A DNA stretch of 64,000 bases, from NCBI RefSeq assembly GCF_000725285.1, contig NZ_CP007161.1, positions 667,911-731,910 on the forward strand, given 5' to 3'. Of this stretch, positions 17,948 to 55,138 are shown in pieces. The notes below the pieces were generated by a model that saw only the letters and a list, made by a program, of their open reading frames with translations, was not told where the DNA came from and ran no database searches. Source of the DNA: Virgibacillus sp. SK37 (lineage in GTDB: Bacteria; Bacillota; Bacilli; Bacillales; Amphibacillaceae). Numbering within the stretch: position 1 is the stretch's first letter; each line of letters starts with the position of its first letter. Made by a program: the position numbers and the translations under genes.

Positions 17948-17975
17948 TTGCATTTTATATTTTTTTCAGTATAAT
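17948..17975 (+). promoter_or_regulatory. Promoter of the cold-shock gene
   Basis: TTGCAT (17948-17953) and a perfect TATAAT (17970-17975) are 16 bp apart. Transcription from about 17982 gives a 5' untranslated leader of about 107 nt, as is usual for cold-shock genes. Confidence 0.65.
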
Positions 17976-18088
17976 AAAGAGTAATTATTCTTGTTCGGTG
18001 TGTAAGAAGGATTTAATTTTCACCTTCGATTTCTAATTGAGCAACAATAGTAATATAATGTGGCTATGCCACGTAGGAGGAAACAAAC

Positions 18089-18289
18089 ATGCAAGAAGGT
18101 TCAGTAAAATGGTTTAACGCAGAAAAAGGTTTCGGTTTCATCGAAGTTGAAGGTGGAGACGATGTATTCGTACATTTCTCAGCTATCCAAGGTGAAGGAT
18201 TCAAAACTTTAGAAGAAGGTCAAAAAGTTTCTTTTGATATCGAAGAAGGACAACGCGGACCTCAAGCAACTAACGTTGTTAAGGCGTAA
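18089..18289 (+). CDS. Cold-shock protein (CspA/CspB family)
   Basis: This 66-residue OB-fold protein binds single-stranded RNA and DNA and acts as an RNA chaperone. RNP1 is seen as KGFGFIEV (about 13-20) and RNP2 as DVFVHFSAI (about 25-33), with the start [13 protein letters not shown]. Length is typical. A strong TAGGAGG lies upstream. The approximately 107-nt leader could allow temperature control. The paralogue name (cspB, cspC or cspD) cannot be settled here. Confidence 0.96.
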
Positions 18290-18294
18290 CTTAT

Positions 18295-18327
18295 AAAAAA
18301 AGGACTCTATTACAGAGTCCTTTTTTA
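18295..18327 (+). terminator. Terminator after the cold-shock gene
   Basis: AGGACTCT (18301-18308) pairs with AGAGTCCT (18314-18321), with A and T tracts of about seven bases on the sides. Confidence 0.93.
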
Positions 18328-18360
18328 TTTTTATGAAAACATTGATGCTCCGGTAATTGC

Positions 18361-46179: not shown

Positions 46180-46288
46180 AGAAAAATTATTTTATAATTG
46201 TATATTAAATAGTTAACCCTCTGCTACAAAAGGTAGGGGGACCTTTTCTTTTATCTACGATTCAACTATGACAGCAAGGAGATTAATA

Positions 46289-47050
46289 ATGAATCAAAGT
46301 GTAATCAAAGCACTAAAACTATTGGACTTGTTTACGGAGGAAAGCCCGGAATTAACCTTAAAAGAAATAGCACATCGTTCCCGCTTACCTAAACCAACTG
46401 CCTATCGAATGCTAACAGCCCTGGAGATGAGCGGCTTTCTCTACAAGACAAAAGAAACAGAACATGATAGTAAATATCGTTTAGGTTTGAAGCTGTTGGA
46501 ATTAGGACAACTTGTCTCTGATAATTTAGAGGTTAGGGAAATTGCTTTGCCATTTATGAAAAAGCTTGCCGAGGACATTAACGAGGTTATCCACTTAGTT
46601 ATTGTAAACGGTTCGGAAGCTACCTATATTGAAAAGGTGGAAAGCACCCGAGCGCTTCGGTTATACACACGAATTGGGAAAAGTTCACCGCTATATTCCG
46701 GGTCTGGTCCTAAACTACTTTTGGCGTTTTTGCCTAAAGAGAAACAAAATGATATTTTAAACAAATCAGAGTTGGATTCACTTACAAATAAACCAATTTC
46801 TGTAGATAAGCTTAGAGAAGAATTGAGTAGAATTAGGAAAACAGGCTATTCTTATAGCATTGGTGAACAGGATGCAGACACGACTGGAATTTCCTATCCT
46901 ATCTATGATTATAGCAATAGAGTTATTGCAGCATTAGCGGTTAGTGGATTATCCAGTCACTTTGAAGGAGAAAATTTAAATGAAATAAAAGAAAAGACAT
47001 CACAAACAGCTGGATATATATCAGAGGAATTAGGTTACCGAAGAGGGTAA
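46289..47050 (+). CDS. IclR family transcriptional regulator
   Basis: This 253-residue regulator has an N-terminal winged helix-turn-helix (VIKALKLLDLF ... LTLKEIAHRSRLPKPTAYRMLTALEMSGFL) and a C-terminal GAF-like ligand domain (HLVIVNGSEATYIEKVE, YSGSGPKLLLAFLP, GEQDADTTGISYPIYDY). IclR proteins bind a metabolic effector and control nearby catabolic genes. It likely controls the lysine operons, and lysine, aminoadipate or glutarate could be the effector. The open frame starts at 46268, but ATG 46289 has AAGGAG seven bases upstream. DUF3870 follows 12 bp later. Confidence 0.9.
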   Translation: MNQSVIKALKLLDLFTEESPELTLKEIAHRSRLPKPTAYRMLTALEMSGFLYKTKETEHDSKYRLGLKLLELGQLVSDNLEVREIALPFMKKLAEDINEVIHLVIVNGSEATYIEKVESTRALRLYTRIGKSSPLYSGSGPKLLLAFLPKEKQNDILNKSELDSLTNKPISVDKLREELSRIRKTGYSYSIGEQDADTTGISYPIYDYSNRVIAALAVSGLSSHFEGENLNEIKEKTSQTAGYISEELGYRRG

Positions 47051-47062
47051 GGAGGAGCGGAA

Positions 47063-47377
47063 ATGAATACAGTTTTTATTGCAGGCCATGCCCGTCTGCC
47101 ATCAGGAATGGCAGCCAAAAGCATCTATGAAACACTGACAATTACAGCAGAAATTGATCAAAAATATGGAGTGATAGTAGCTGCAAACTGTACTCTGGCA
47201 ACAGAACATGGAAAGAGCTTTATCCAACAACTGCTCAGAGGATATAGTCTACAGGATGGTATTGAGAAACCCGTTGATGAAATTAAAGCACGCTACCTTG
47301 GAAAAGCCGGTAATGCACTAGCATCTGCATTAAAGGACTTGTATAAACAATATAAAAGCTATAAACATATCGATTAA
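47063..47377 (+). CDS. DUF3870 protein
   Basis: This 104-residue protein fits DUF3870, seen as FIAGHARLPSGMAAKSIYETLTITAEID and VIVAANCTLATEHGKSFI. It appears small, cytoplasmic and without cofactor motif. Its function is not known. Members often accompany amino-acid catabolic genes, and here it follows the IclR gene with only 12 bp, GGAGG upstream. It could act in or regulate the lysine route. No terminator follows before the repeat array. Confidence 0.8.
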   Translation: MNTVFIAGHARLPSGMAAKSIYETLTITAEIDQKYGVIVAANCTLATEHGKSFIQQLLRGYSLQDGIEKPVDEIKARYLGKAGNALASALKDLYKQYKSYKHID

Positions 47378-47671: not shown

Positions 47672-49117
47672 TCAAGCCATTCCAATTGATATAAATTTTT
47701 GTTCCAAAAATTCATCCATCCCGTGATGACCGCCTTCTTTACCAATCCCAGATTGTTTAATTCCGCCAAATGGCGCTTCAGGTACTGCAGGAAACACATC
47801 GTTTACGCCAACGATGCCGTAATCTAATTTTTCCGAAACGCGGATAGCCCGGTTTGTATTTTCTGTGAAAATATAGGCAGCTAAGCCGTAATCGGTGTTA
47901 TTCGCCTTCTGAAGAACTTCTGCCTCATCTGTAAAGAACTGAATAGGAATTACTGGGCCAAAAGTTTCCTCATTCATTACTTTCATTTCATCATCCACGT
48001 TGGAAATAATGGTAGGCTCATAGAAATGCCCATCTAAATTGCTACTCCAATTCTTACCACCACATACAATCTCGCAGCCCTTTGAGACGGCGTCCTCCAC
48101 ATGTGAACCTACTTTTTCTAATGCCGCCTTATTAATTAGTGGTCCCAACTCTACTCCATCATCCAAACCATATCCAATTTTCATTTTTAAAGCTTTTTCC
48201 TTCAACAAATTGGTGAAAGACGATTTAATCGACTCATGGACGTATAATCGATTTGTACAAATACAGGTTTGCCCGTTATTCCTAAATTTACTGCCAAGTA
48301 CAAGGGTGGTTGCTTTGTCAATATCTGCATCTTCAAATACAATGCTTGGGGCATGCCCACCAAGCTCTAAAGATAGTTTTTTCACATGTGCTGCACTTTC
48401 TCTCATTAAGTATTTACCTACTTCTGTAGACCCCGTAAAAGTAATTAATCGTACACGCTTATCAACAAGTAGGGCATTGCCGATTTCTTCTGCATCTCCG
48501 GTCACAAGATTAACAACACCCGGAGGCATCCCTGCCCGTTCGAATACTTTCATTATTTCAATAGCGGACAAGGGCGTTTCCGGGGCGGGTTTCAAGACTA
48601 CCGTGCAACCCGCAGCCAAAGCAGGTGCAAGTTTTCTCGTTATCATCGATGATGGGAAATTCCAAGGAGTAATAGCGCCTACTACGCCAACTGCCTGTGG
48701 AATGACAAGCAATCGTTTTTCTTTTGAGGATGAGGGGATCCATTCTCCGTATCCCCGGCTTGCTTCCTCTGCATACCATAATAAAAAGTTGGCAGCACCT
48801 TTTACCTCCCCTACAGCCTCCTTTAATGGTTTTCCTTGTTCAAGTGTTAAAATTTTTCCCAGACGTTCCGCATCCTCCATCATAAGCTCGTATGCCTTAT
48901 ATAGTATCCGAGACCGCTCCCGCCCTGTTCTTTCACTCCAGTCAGAAAACGCTTCAGAAGCGGAGGTGATTGCTTCCTCTGTTTCAGCCTTACCTCCGTG
49001 TGCAACCTCTGTCACCACCTCCATTGTTGCCGGATTATAAATCGCATTCGTTCCCTTAGAACCTGTTTCTCTCCACTCACCATTAACGAAAATACTTTTT
49101 GTGAAATTAGTAAACAT
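47672..49117 (-). CDS. Aldehyde dehydrogenase, GabD-like; candidate glutarate semialdehyde dehydrogenase
   Basis: This 481-residue protein is of the succinate/glutarate semialdehyde dehydrogenase type. Catalytic Cys lies near 283 in NNGQTCICTNR and Glu in LSLELGGHAPSIVFEDADID. EAPFGGIKQSGIGKEGG near the end is typical of GabD. In this cluster glutarate semialdehyde is the expected substrate, giving glutarate. GabD-type enzymes often accept succinate semialdehyde too, so this is contextual. GGGAGG precedes ATG 49117. It is the third gene of the CoA-transferase, acyl-CoA dehydrogenase, ALDH operon. Confidence 0.86.
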   Translation of the reverse strand: MFTNFTKSIFVNGEWRETGSKGTNAIYNPATMEVVTEVAHGGKAETEEAITSASEAFSDWSERTGRERSRILYKAYELMMEDAERLGKILTLEQGKPLKEAVGEVKGAANFLLWYAEEASRGYGEWIPSSSKEKRLLVIPQAVGVVGAITPWNFPSSMITRKLAPALAAGCTVVLKPAPETPLSAIEIMKVFERAGMPPGVVNLVTGDAEEIGNALLVDKRVRLITFTGSTEVGKYLMRESAAHVKKLSLELGGHAPSIVFEDADIDKATTLVLGSKFRNNGQTCICTNRLYVHESIKSSFTNLLKEKALKMKIGYGLDDGVELGPLINKAALEKVGSHVEDAVSKGCEIVCGGKNWSSNLDGHFYEPTIISNVDDEMKVMNEETFGPVIPIQFFTDEAEVLQKANNTDYGLAAYIFTENTNRAIRVSEKLDYGIVGVNDVFPAVPEAPFGGIKQSGIGKEGGHHGMDEFLEQKFISIGMA

Positions 49118-49160: not shown

Positions 49161-50366
49161 TTATTTGATTAATTGGGATTGACCCCAGGCAGGGAGCATT
49201 CGATTAAGCTCTTTATCTTTTCGATAACCTAAAACATATTCGGCCTGCATCACAGTATGAATCTCCCGTGTACCTTCATATATAACAGGGGCTTTAGAAT
49301 TACGTAAATATCGTTCCACAGGGTATTCATCAGAAAAACCGTAAGCACCATGAATCTGGACTGCATCATCTGCAGCTTTATTGGCAAAATCGCATGCCTG
49401 CCACTTTGCGAGTGATGTCTCTCTTGTATTTCGTTTGCCGTCATTCTTGAGTTCTCCTGCTCGATAAACAAGTAGTCTGCTCATTTGCAGACCTGCTTCC
49501 ATATTAGCAATCATTTGTTGGACCAGTTGATGCTTTCCAATTGATTTTCCAAATGTCTCTCTTTCTTGGCAATACTTCACACTAGCCTCTAAACATGCCA
49601 TGATTTGTCCAACAGCCCCTGCAGCTACGGTGAAACGTCCGTTATCTAGAGCGGCCATTGCTATTTTAAAGCCTTCTCCTTCTTCACCAAGGAGGTTTTC
49701 TTTAGGAACTTTTACATTTTCAAAAAATAACTCACCTGTATTTCCGGCTCGAATACCTAATTTACCCTTAGTTGCTTTGGAAGAAAATCCATCCCACGTA
49801 CGTTCAACGATAAATGCAGAAATCGCCTTATGCTTCTCCGCACGATCCCCAGTATAGGCAAAAACTAAAAAGTGATCTGCTGTATCACAGAGAGAGATCC
49901 AGGTTTTTTGTCCATTTAAAATATAATAGTCTCCTTGCTTTTGTGCTGTTGATTGCAATGCGGACACGTCTGATCCAGCAGCTGGTTCTGTTAGACCAAA
50001 TGCACCAATTTTCTCCCCCTTTGCCTGTGGGACGAGATATTTTTGCTTCTGTTCCTCCGTACCCCATTGCAACAAAGTCATGCTGTTTAAACCAGTGTGT
50101 ACAGAGACGGCGGTACGAAATGCAGTATCCCCGCGTTCCAGCTCCTCACAAACAATAGCAAGTGAATTATAATCCATTCCACTGCCGCCATATTCTTCTG
50201 GAATACATACACCCATTAGACCAAGGCTGGCTAGTTTTGTTAAAATGGCAGGATCAAATTTCCCTTCCCGGTCCCATTGGCCAATATATGGCATAATTTC
50301 TTTATCCGTAAAATCTCTCACCGTTTTTCTTAACATTGTTTGTTCTTCGGAAAAATTAAAATCCAT
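49161..50366 (-). CDS. Acyl-CoA dehydrogenase, likely glutaryl-CoA dehydrogenase
   Basis: This 401-residue FAD enzyme has the acyl-CoA dehydrogenase fold: FGLTEPAAGSDVSALQSTA, the flavin motifs and the catalytic base E364 in YEGTREIHTV. An Arg at about 84 in FRTAVSVHTGL matches the spot where glutaryl-CoA dehydrogenases hold the substrate carboxylate (YRSAMSVQ in the human enzyme, from memory). The proposed reaction is glutaryl-CoA to crotonyl-CoA and CO2, but specificity is not proven. It sits 13 bp downstream of the CoA-transferase and 43 bp upstream of the semialdehyde dehydrogenase gene. AAAGGAGAG precedes its start. Confidence 0.83.
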   Translation of the reverse strand: MDFNFSEEQTMLRKTVRDFTDKEIMPYIGQWDREGKFDPAILTKLASLGLMGVCIPEEYGGSGMDYNSLAIVCEELERGDTAFRTAVSVHTGLNSMTLLQWGTEEQKQKYLVPQAKGEKIGAFGLTEPAAGSDVSALQSTAQKQGDYYILNGQKTWISLCDTADHFLVFAYTGDRAEKHKAISAFIVERTWDGFSSKATKGKLGIRAGNTGELFFENVKVPKENLLGEEGEGFKIAMAALDNGRFTVAAGAVGQIMACLEASVKYCQERETFGKSIGKHQLVQQMIANMEAGLQMSRLLVYRAGELKNDGKRNTRETSLAKWQACDFANKAADDAVQIHGAYGFSDEYPVERYLRNSKAPVIYEGTREIHTVMQAEYVLGYRKDKELNRMLPAWGQSQLIK

Positions 50367-50379
50367 GCAAATCTCTCCT

Positions 50380-51540
50380 TTACTTTTTATTGGTTTTGGC
50401 TACAAGTTTATCGACAATAGCTTCATTATGTTCGCCCGCATTCGGCGGATGATGTCTAACTGATATAGGAGTTCTGGAAAACTTCAGCGGACTTCCAATC
50501 ATTTTGACTTGCCCTGCAGTTGGGTGTTTGCAATCAATGAACATATTTCTTGCTTGGAGCTGTGGATCCTTTACTACTTCATCTAAATTCTGGATTGGTC
50601 CACAAGGGATATTATTTTTCTGGCACTCCTGCTGCCAGTGTGCTGTTGTATTTTTTATGAGTATATCTTGTAGTAGGGGGACTAAAATATCACGATTGGC
50701 AACACGATCGGGATTTGTTTGAAATCGATCATCCATACTGTATTCGTATTTTTGCAGAATAGAACACAATGCTTTAAATTGAGAATCATTGCCAATAGCG
50801 ATTACCATTTCACCATCCAATGTTTTAAACGATTGGTATGGGACGATATTTGCATGCTGATTGCCTAAAGGTCGTGGAATTTCCTCGGTCATTAAATAGT
50901 TACTGCCAATATTTACTAATGAGCTAACAGCGGAATCATAAAGGGAGATATCTAGCTTTTGTCCCTTTCCAGATACCGTTCGTTCAAGCAATGCACCTTG
51001 GATTCCAATACATGCATATAGACCGGTCAAAATATCCGTGATGGCAACCCCCATTTTTTGCGGGCCTGATTCTTTATCACCTGTTATACTCATTAATCCA
51101 CTCATCGCCTGAATAATGAAATCATAGCCGGGCATATCTTTATATGGGCCTGTTTCACCAAAGCCTGTTATGGAGCAAAATACGATAGCCGGGTTGATTT
51201 TGGCAAGTGTCTCATAGTCAAGCCCTAACCGATGCATGGTCCCAGTTTTGAAATTGTTAATTATAACATCGCTCTCTTTTACTAGTTCCTTAATAGCAGC
51301 GACGCCTTCATCAGTTTTTAAATTCAATGTAATGCTCTTTTTATTCCGATTGGCACATAAGTAATAAGCGCTTACATTATTCTTGAAGGGAGGCCCCCAT
51401 TTACGTGTCTCATCACTTCCGCCAGGAGCTTCTACTTTTATAATGTCAGCTCCCATGTCCCCAAGGATCATAGTGCAATAGGGACCTGCAAGTACACGAG
51501 ATAAATCAAGAATCTTTATATGTTCCAATGCGCCAGACAT
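50380..51540 (-). CDS. Class III CoA-transferase (CaiB/BaiF), likely succinyl-CoA:glutarate CoA-transferase
   Basis: This 386-residue protein is a family III CoA-transferase. The start ILDLSRVLAGPYCTMILGDMGADIIKVE, NRNKKSITLNLK and the catalytic Asp about 140 (MPGYDFIIQAMSGLMSITG) are hallmarks. Relatives include the glutarate CoA-transferase SUGCT. With an acyl-CoA dehydrogenase just downstream, the likely job is to give glutaryl-CoA from glutarate. The frame opens at 51576, but ATG 51540 has AAAGGAG at good spacing. It leads the minus-strand operon and is preceded by a structured leader with a terminator hairpin. Confidence 0.86.
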   Translation of the reverse strand: MSGALEHIKILDLSRVLAGPYCTMILGDMGADIIKVEAPGGSDETRKWGPPFKNNVSAYYLCANRNKKSITLNLKTDEGVAAIKELVKESDVIINNFKTGTMHRLGLDYETLAKINPAIVFCSITGFGETGPYKDMPGYDFIIQAMSGLMSITGDKESGPQKMGVAITDILTGLYACIGIQGALLERTVSGKGQKLDISLYDSAVSSLVNIGSNYLMTEEIPRPLGNQHANIVPYQSFKTLDGEMVIAIGNDSQFKALCSILQKYEYSMDDRFQTNPDRVANRDILVPLLQDILIKNTTAHWQQECQKNNIPCGPIQNLDEVVKDPQLQARNMFIDCKHPTAGQVKMIGSPLKFSRTPISVRHHPPNAGEHNEAIVDKLVAKTNKK

Positions 51541-51560
51541 ACGTTCACTCCTTTCATGGA

Positions 51561-51624
51561 AAAATAAAAAAGCCAATCCAAATAGATTACAGTTTTAACT
51601 GTAAATCCACTTGAACTGGCTTTT
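51561..51624 (-). terminator. Leader terminator hairpin directly upstream of the CoA-transferase
   Basis: A long imperfect stem (51568-51595 with 51597-51624; outer AAAAGCCA paired with TGGCTTTT, inner ACAGTT with AACTGT) is followed on the minus strand by TTTTTTATTTTT. It ends only 20 bases before the start codon, downstream of a promoter and with no gene in between, so it looks like an attenuator. Confidence 0.8.
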
Positions 51625-51736
51625 ACCTGTTGATTCAGTTCTGGGGTAGAACCGTGAACAGATTAGGCAGCAGAATGTTAATAGAAGTCATGGTATCATG
51701 CGATTCAAACGAGCAAATCGTTATGGGGCATGATTT
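51625..51736 (-). promoter_or_regulatory. Structured 5' leader, candidate riboswitch/attenuator
   Basis: On the minus strand the leader starts with a hairpin whose outer arms are ATCATG (51729-51734) and CATGAT (51695-51700), inner CGATT/AATCG (51701-51720), with a CCCCATAA bulge on one side. A second hairpin has CTGTT/AACAG (51627-51661) and GTTCT/AGAAC (51638-51652) around ACCCC. I do not recognise a known riboswitch class. Together with the terminator that follows it may sense a lysine-pathway metabolite. Confidence 0.55.
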
Positions 51737-51742
51737 AAATAT

Positions 51743-51771
51743 ATTATACTTTATTCTGAATAATTTGTAAA
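51743..51771 (-). promoter_or_regulatory. Promoter of the glutarate operon
   Basis: Minus-strand TTTACA (51766-51771), 17-bp spacer, TATAAT (51743-51748). It predicts transcription from about 51736 and a leader of about 195 nt. Confidence 0.78.
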
Positions 51772-51976
51772 TGTTAAATTAAAAAATAAACATTTTTTCC
51801 AATCTCTGTATATGCTTGGTTTTGTAAAGTGTATCAACTGGTGCTAAGAAATATCAATGCGCTAACAATAATAACTTAACGGAGAGCTGATTAAGAGCAG
51901 AATACCGCTAATTAGATCTTAATCTAGGTTACAGACACTGTTACTGGGAAATGCGAACAACCGACAGAAACTATTA

Positions 51977-52256
51977 GCAGGAGAGCGAAAGAATCCGCCG
52001 GAGCAGAAATAAATCAGCAGGAGAACGAAAGAATCCGCTGGAGCAGAGAATAATCAGCAGGAGAGCGAGAGTATCCGCCGGAGCAGAAATAAATCAGCAG
52101 GAGAACGAAAGAATCCGCTGGAGCAGAAATAAATCAGCAGGAGAGCGAAAGAATCCGCCGGAGCAGAGAATAATCAGCAGGAGAGCGGAAGAATCCGCCG
52201 AAGCAAAGAATAATCAGCTTTAGAACGAGATTATCCGCCATTATCTATTAGAAACG
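51977..52256 (+). repeat. Seven-copy 40-bp tandem repeat
   Basis: GCAGGAG-like unit starts occur at 51977, 52017, 52057, 52097, 52137, 52177 and 52217, an exact 40-bp period. Units differ at a few positions and the last is decayed. It covers much of the 840-bp stretch 51541-52380 that has no gene. Between 51772 and 51976 nothing else was seen. Confidence 0.92.
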
Positions 52257-54929: not shown

Positions 54930-55138
54930 CCGCTACGGAAAATACTGCGCTTTTCGGGGCGGCTGATGAGCCTCGGGCCAACACGATGTTGGCCATGAAG
55001 GCGTTGCGACAATGGGGTTTGATGGGGCGAGTATGCGCAGCCCCAGGACGTCGCGACTTTAGCCTTCCAACCTCTATACCGCATTCCGGGGTCTCACCGA
55101 TGCCTCATCTCCCCCAGGAGTCTCCGTATTTCCTCCGC
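54930..55138 (+). repeat. Large palindromic repeat C
   Basis: GC-rich stretch with GGAAAATAC near its left and GTATTTCC near its right end (54937, 55126), plus GATGAGCC/GCCTCATC pairs, forming a large imperfect hairpin. Several short antisense frames inside it look random. It is of the same general kind as A and B. Confidence 0.7.

Follow-up and report, generated by a model that had tools for sequence, protein, structure and literature searches.

A conserved leader RNA of glutarate genes in Bacilli, a candidate riboswitch in which a closing stem and a terminator are predicted to compete

The leader in front of the CaiB-type CoA-transferase gene of Virgibacillus sp. SK37 belongs to a family of structured RNAs that matches nothing in Rfam 15. 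It contains a conserved structured domain that is backed by covariation in two helices, P2 and P3, and by conservation and complementarity only in a third, P1. The RNA is associated with a single metabolic theme across its downstream genes, some of which are not homologous to each other. By computation only, its expression platform is mutually exclusive with the putative sensing domain. A sequence-only reading of the window, by which we mean the whole stretch of 64,000 nucleotides that was analyzed, had proposed a candidate new riboswitch or attenuator at this site. Conservation, covariation, the lack of an Rfam match, and a conserved upstream promoter support that proposal; the observation on the leader is thus confirmed, and the finding is larger than first described. 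Irrespective of how sensing works and of which ligand is involved, we think it highly probable that the leader acts as an antitermination switch that regulates a glutarate regulon. That glutarate binds the P1-P2-P3 element directly, as in a riboswitch, is to us the likeliest sensing step, but one that we hold tentatively, having no binding or expression data. Slightly more tentative still is the full picture of a new riboswitch class across Bacilli, with glutarate as its ligand and with an exchange between P1 and the terminator that activates two unrelated pathways as well as transporters. If true, a regulatory RNA not described before would come with an unusually clear candidate for its ligand, the control of glutarate and lysine-derived carbon in many Bacilli would be explained, and a compact sensor would become available for a compound that matters to industry and medicine.

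The leader of about 196 nt lies on the minus strand and runs from about 51736, an inferred start, to the CaiB ATG at 51540. The features of the leader and of the genes around it are as follows.

51743..51771, minus strand: promoter, with -35 TTTACA at 51771-51766, a spacer of 17 nt, and -10 TATAAT at 51748-51743 (11 of 12 consensus bases)
51751..51763, minus strand: palindrome TTATTCAGAATAA in the promoter spacer
51695..51734, minus strand: 5' hairpin P0, an optional part (from the fold and from relatives)
51615..51671, minus strand: conserved element P1-P2-P3, 57 nt, candidate aptamer (from covariance models R1-R3, covariation, and the MFE of the isolated element)
51665-51671 with 51615-51621, minus strand: P1, with a C.C mismatch at 51667/51619
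51657-51663 with 51625-51631, minus strand: P2
51649-51654 with 51636-51641, minus strand: P3, with the apical loop at 51642-51648
51568..51624, minus strand: intrinsic terminator hairpin (from folds), whose 5' arm contains the P1 3' strand AGCCAGU (51615-51621)
51560..51571, minus strand: terminator U run TTTTTTATTTTT, ending 19 bases before the ATG
50383..51540, minus strand: CaiB-type CoA-transferase, the regulated gene (NCBIfam best match), with its stop codon at 50380-50382
49161..50366, minus strand: acyl-CoA dehydrogenase, glutaryl-CoA dehydrogenase-like (profile matches below cut-off)
47672..49117, minus strand: aldehyde dehydrogenase of the succinate-semialdehyde type (SSADH, 620 bits; cut-off 646)
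47063..47377, plus strand: DUF3870 protein, a near-constant genomic companion of the RNA and a candidate trans factor

From the sequence, a very good promoter had been described, followed by a transcript of about 195 nt with two hairpins and then a long terminator stem with a U run 20 bases before the start codon and no gene in between. All of this was borne out, the U run within one base. The predicted fold of 51737-51557 has an energy of -56 kcal/mol (z of -7.1), equalled by 0 of 200 shuffles, and consists of hairpin 1 (51734-51695), hairpin 2 (51663-51625), and the terminator hairpin (51624-51568). The only listed frame of at least 100 aa in the leader is the CaiB frame itself, extended upstream to a TTG by the tool. 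P1, which closes hairpin 2, lay outside what that reading had seen. When the window element is folded in isolation, its MFE is the P1-P2-P3 fold, at -16.6 kcal/mol. The leader terminator was absent from the output of a simple terminator scan, which held only four sites, all in upstream repeats; we nevertheless accept it on the evidence of the fold, the U run, and related sequences.

At the DNA level, 32 of the 100 related genomes searched had a match. CaiB lay beside the match in all 19 loci with E ≤1.1e-4 and in 21 of the 30 fetched; the other nine were short, weak matches. Among 159 genomes of the window's own family that were searched for CaiB orthologs, 79 had a match at E 1e-120 or better, and reading of the upstream regions placed the element before 77 of these 79 genes. 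In one of the two genomes without it, G002, the leader and terminator are gone and the promoter is still there; in the other, G035, only a terminator is present. Two CaiB paralogs at about 50% identity (L099 and L100) also lack the element. The core consensus within the own family is ACUGCCUAAUCUGUUCACAGUUCnAUnCCAGnnCUGUUCCAACAGAUAAAAGCCAGUUCA. A covariance model built from the 77 sequences, R1, scores the window element at 74.1 bits, the window being one of its training sequences. Upstream of the element, TTTACA-type promoter-like sites occur in 71 of the 77 own-family leaders, in a scan without a shuffle control. An inverted repeat of at least 6 bp, corresponding to P0, follows the -10 in 58 of 71 leaders, compared to 27.7 expected from shuffles.

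P2 and P3 covary. In the own-family set, both sides had changed in 12 of 19 pairs (9.0 in shuffles), and the covariation score was 0.281 versus 0.157 in shuffles and at most 0.101 when the partners were slid. For a broad set of 98 matches the score rose to 0.493 (0.208 in shuffles, at most 0.119 when slid), and 88.8% of cells were paired versus at most 41.1% with slid partners. The number of pairs with double changes in this set, 14, was no higher than in shuffles (mean of 12.7, with 104 of 500 reaching it), whereas the double-change cells numbered 305 versus 86.8 in shuffles and the pair types also exceeded them. P1, in which ACUG-Y-CU faces AG-C-CAGU, is paired in 97.3% of the own-family set and 90.8% of the broad set, but hardly covaries, and three of its pairs never vary. 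Because P1 is almost invariant, it is supported by conservation and complementarity, not by covariation. Its mismatch is conserved as well: across 99 rows the base facing the invariant C of the 3' strand is C, U, or A, and never G. RNAalifold alone recovered P2 and the base of the terminator, and missed P1 and P3.

Several limits apply to these counts. Models R2 and R3 were built on earlier matches aligned to the model, so the pair counts in sets A7 and A8 are biased in favour of the structure; the sliding of partners and the GlaH loci outside the source list (below) serve as controls. Set A1 comprises 70 of the 77 elements, and 14 of its 70 rows carry extra 3' sequence. L038 was excluded from A4 because of a reverse-strand match. 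One match (L139, 1597-1680 minus) is contained in A7, was excluded from the hand counts of 99 members, and was avoided in A8.

The sequence-only reading would have been refuted by a lack of conservation in relatives, by a match to a known Rfam class, or by a transcript start downstream of the terminator. Conservation and covariation were both found, and the conserved promoter lies upstream of the element. At the gathering score, Rfam 15 has no match at the leader site or in 20 related loci, in agreement with the failure of that reading to recognize any common riboswitch class. Below threshold, the search gave only a match to the terminator part and matches at chance level.

We then considered how the element could control termination. 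The 3' strand of P1 (AGCCAGU) is common to P1 and to the 5' arm of the terminator in the window sequence and fold; therefore, P1 and the terminator exclude each other. When the window transcript is folded as it grows, P1 is in the MFE until the 3' arm of the terminator has been made, after which keeping P1 costs 12.1 kcal/mol. This arrangement is general: in all 99 members that were checked, a U-tailed terminator contains the CCAG of P1, and P1 is present in the MFE of the element alone in 96 of them, the window included (the misses are L016, L164, and L166). In the own-family alignment of 70 sequences, the terminator 5' arm has a stretch of five positions that never vary, and the opposite arm varies, to the point that at one position it has a G facing G in 11 of the 70. 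Such a pattern would be expected if the 5' arm also had another pairing partner. The computed logic is that of an ON switch, in which anything that stabilizes P1 blocks termination.

In searches of wider samples, R1 matched 82 of 159 own-family genomes and 35 of 397 genomes of the order, R2 matched 22 of 398 genomes of the class, and R3 matched 5 of 398 genomes of the phylum, three of them solid and within the class and two marginal and outside it. The genome samples for these searches overlap. The class that carries the RNA is inferred to be Bacilli from the named GlaH loci described below. Matches that were dropped or judged false are G052, G031, the second match in G166, G154:C22, and L165 in the own family, and L155 (order), L183 (class), L302, and L261 1500-1548 minus elsewhere. 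Six order-level R1 matches were left unread (G361:C273, G435, G446, G495, G086, and G359), although G495 is still among the 38 genomes checked for DUF3870. The element of G174 lies at a contig end, with no downstream gene assigned to it.

In the window, the best NCBIfam match of the CaiB protein is succinate--glutarate CoA-transferase, below the cut-off (432 of 750 bits), and the acyl-CoA dehydrogenase matches AcrC acryloyl-CoA reductase (389 bits, cut-off 640) and GlutCoADH_Des (379 bits, cut-off 470). CaiB follows the element in 77 own-family cases. Five second copies in the own family, at L161-L164 and the weak L166, are followed by genes for a TAXI-type receptor, a small protein (by eye, DUF1850-like), a permease of the DctM type, and a DASS symporter; at L163, profiles confirmed the receptor, permease, and symporter. 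Reading of 23 loci from other families of the order gave CaiB in 12, an APC permease in 5, GlaH in 5, and nothing convincing in 1. The class search contributed 22 loci that were read: 11 had CaiB, 3 an acyl-CoA dehydrogenase, 3 GlaH, 1 an APC permease, 1 a class III aminotransferase, and 2 a small frame starting with MC, with 1 not convincing. One genome (G701) has three copies within about 19 kb, before an aminotransferase, CaiB, and a permease.

GlaH, the glutarate hydroxylase, was confirmed by NCBIfam at two loci, L154 and L157 (433 and 451 bits, cut-off 333). At L205 the copy precedes a GabT-like aminotransferase (589 bits, cut-off 507) and an aldehyde dehydrogenase. At L223 it is followed by a small frame, a GntR-like regulator, and the L-2-hydroxyglutarate oxidase LhgO (604 bits, cut-off 299), an order that L226 resembles by reading. 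Profile tests of these names cover LhgO, GabT, GlaH at two loci, and one case each of a permease, TAXI, DctM, and DASS; other downstream names were given by reading only. A tiny Cys-rich frame starting with MC was seen after the RNA at seven loci, whole in L219, L222, and L223 and by its first codons only in L186, L189, L226, and L305.

An independent test was provided by loci pulled with the GlaH protein alone, namely the best 80 of 189, from named genomes that include Halobacillus, Thalassobacillus, Pseudalkalibacillus, Neobacillus, Fictibacillus, Aneurinibacillus, Brevibacillus, Paenibacillus, and others. Among these best 80 of 189, the element was found directly upstream of GlaH in 54 with R2 (E ≤0.5) and in 72 with R3 (E ≤0.1). 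For GlaH loci outside the R3 source set, it was upstream in 49 of 56. R3 found no element at GlaH in L215, L219, L229, L238, L239, L252, L254, and L265. L239 and L252 are Leeia and Silvimonas loci, and in L215 and L254 an RNA copy is located before a permease rather than GlaH.

The CaiB/GcdH and GlaH/LhgO routes are unrelated and have glutarate as their common entry substrate. The link to glutarate is stronger than a reader of the sequence could have known because the same RNA precedes GlaH, LhgO, and dicarboxylate-type transporter genes. Since one RNA is shared by several glutarate genes that are unrelated to each other, its signal is probably glutarate or a closely related compound. The dicarboxylate-type transporters, whose substrates are not established, and an aminotransferase that could use 5-aminovalerate fit this idea. 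Together with the shared substrate they make glutarate the first ligand candidate; 5-aminovalerate and L-2-hydroxyglutarate come next. Against the glutarate theme, the CaiB and acyl-CoA dehydrogenase assignments are below the NCBIfam cut-offs, and there are copies before Cys-rich frames and, at L250 (7659-7724), before a gene that reads as hydantoinase/oxoprolinase-like, outside the obvious glutarate theme.

Our proposal, deduced from sequence and computation, is that RNA polymerase would start at the conserved promoter and make the P1-P2-P3 element first. Without ligand, we infer that the terminator would displace P1 and transcription would end before CaiB. When glutarate accumulates, its direct binding would clamp P1, allowing polymerase to continue into the genes. 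The module is found ahead of genes for both alternative glutarate routes (CaiB/GcdH and GlaH/LhgO), for supply enzymes, and for transporters.

The strongest competitor is a protein-dependent antiterminator, in which the signal, glutarate or its degradation, is sensed by DUF3870 or a different trans factor that binds the P1-P2-P3 hairpin, the RNA then being a protein site and not an aptamer. We consider this possible, if doubtful. LicT, GlpP, and HutP act in this way on their RNA targets. Beyond the own family, strongly conserved unpaired bases are few (the A after P1 and two C's in the apical loop), and the apical loop and P1 are far apart, which speaks against direct sensing of glutarate; because of both features, the hairpin could be one that a protein recognizes. 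In 62 of the best 80 of 189 loci, DUF3870 is encoded no more than about 6 kb from GlaH, in positions and orientations that vary as for a regulator, and it is near GlaH in 45 of the 54 loci with an R2 element and in 17 of the 26 others. It is present in 78 of the 82 own-family genomes with an R1 match, where the remaining four comprise two relic leaders and two weak matches, and in 35 of 38 RNA-bearing genomes outside the own family. Of 18 loci without DUF3870 near GlaH, ten named genomes were tested; all ten have the element, and all ten have DUF3870. Furthermore, the RNA is missing from only two of the 79 CaiB genomes, G002 and G035, and these two alone also lack DUF3870, a coincidence with a chance of 1 in 3081 if the two are independent; R3 finds no match in either genome. 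The state of G002, with its leader and terminator lost and its promoter kept, is expected if loss of an activator forced loss of the terminator. Among 24 controls first scored as RNA-negative, DUF3870 was found in 12 (one weakly), and R3 then detected the RNA in 3 of these 12 and in 0 of the 12 without DUF3870. The DUF3870 proteins of the pathway type are mildly basic, with a median pI of 7.9 and a pI of 9.0 for the window protein. These data favour a functional link between DUF3870 and the RNA.

However, in three genomes of one genus (G662, G720, and G744) DUF3870 was not found, yet the RNA is intact with terminators (L172, L175, and L169, respectively). Their elements precede a lone acyl-CoA dehydrogenase, and no close CaiB was found in the genomes (best, 33% identity). 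In these searches, DUF3870 thus does not accompany every intact copy of the RNA, although dependence in most lineages is not excluded. Conversely, there was no RNA, even with R3, in 9 of the 12 DUF3870-positive controls and in five DUF3870-positive own-family genomes. A second class of DUF3870 adjoins a permease (DUF819-like by eye) without a convincing element, and the presence counts mix both classes; moreover, joint loss of the RNA and DUF3870 could also be explained by loss of glutarate use. The predicted structure of DUF3870 (pLDDT 88.5) gave IscU proteins as the best fold matches (Z 9.4, 2.6 A over 94 residues). An IscU-like fold for the model is only tentative because other folds reach 8.7 and Foldseek with the model returned nothing at E 0.001. 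At this point, we cannot exclude that DUF3870 represents a new family of RNA-binding antiterminator proteins, possibly with an IscU-like fold, which would give DUF3870 a function. We place direct sensing ahead of a protein partner by a modest margin only.

A riboswitch of the same design could instead recognize another metabolite of the routes, such as 5-aminovalerate, L-2-hydroxyglutarate, glutaryl-CoA, or another acid. Some copies do stand before aminotransferases, an amino-acid permease, or LhgO, but the commonest first genes, CaiB and GlaH, encode unrelated enzymes whose common substrate is glutarate (GlaH being profile-confirmed and CaiB resting on its best, sub-cut-off match), and TAXI and DASS transporters fit a dicarboxylate. 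We regard a ligand other than glutarate as improbable.

Attenuation by a leader peptide, in which a short frame through the element senses translation, has very little left to support it: the window does have an 18-codon ATG frame through the element (by eye), but a start with a Shine-Dalgarno-like stretch and a frame entering the element occurs in only 2 of 71 leaders, so that the leaders share no conserved translatable short frame and the attenuator was rejected, and the distance between conserved blocks does not keep to one frame (47, 23, and 7 of 77 in the three classes). A plain terminator or insulator without regulation, suggested by a strong terminator in front of a gene, is hardly credible given the conserved promoter upstream and a covarying element that is coupled to the terminator in every one of the 99 members checked.

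Lysine and other Rfam riboswitches exert cis-acting metabolite control of transcription in Bacilli. None of them matched the leader at the gathering score, and the leader differs from them in its architecture of one long hairpin. In BglG/LicT-type control, an antiterminator hairpin overlaps the 5' arm of a terminator and prevents it from forming; the leader is similar in that its putative antiterminating hairpin shares the terminator 5' arm. A BglG/LicT site as such (RF03530, bglG-cis-reg) was rejected, with 30.7 of 80 bits for the terminator part only (51561-51628) and 18.8 bits in L050.

As far as the accessible parts of PMC6478431 show, the HMP-PP (thiS motif) riboswitch resembles the leader in having its aptamer embedded in a terminator, with binding that competes with termination. 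Its genes differ from those of the leader, and the leader element has no gathering-score match in Rfam. In Pseudomonas, according to the portion of PMC6667623 available to us, glutarate catabolism is regulated by CsiR and GcdR, proteins of the GntR and LysR families, whereas the leader is an RNA common to both glutarate routes. The available text of PMC9788692 concerns motifs other than the leader element, and that of PMC8632094 describes the odc1 motif, which is different from it. Within the open-licence literature on glutarate, caiB, CsiD riboswitches, or antitermination, to the extent that these sources could be seen, the element is not described.

The promoter spacer of the leader contains the palindrome listed above, which may resemble a CodY box, and TTCWGAA, the core of this palindrome, is found in the spacer of 38 of 77 own-family leaders in the promoter scan described above. 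Judged from sequence alone, the palindrome is a possible operator of an unidentified DNA-binding regulator, and the spacer motif suggests a second, DNA-level control of the leader. An IclR-type gene is located at 46268-47050 of the window. About six copies of a 40-bp tandem repeat occupy 51976-52218, upstream of the promoter region.

Two orphan leader copies, L159 and L160, have a short terminator and occur in genomes in which neither a CaiB match nor DUF3870 was found; for 3 kb there is no frame of at least 120 aa on the strand of the copy, and they are probably relics. One of the marginal matches outside the class (L303 in G976, 28.9 bits) has a good terminator and precedes a PrpF-like gene, named by eye. 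Elsewhere in the window, Rfam matches were obtained for a cspA thermoregulator (17970-18328, plus strand) and a Bacillaceae-1 RNA (54978-55078, minus strand).
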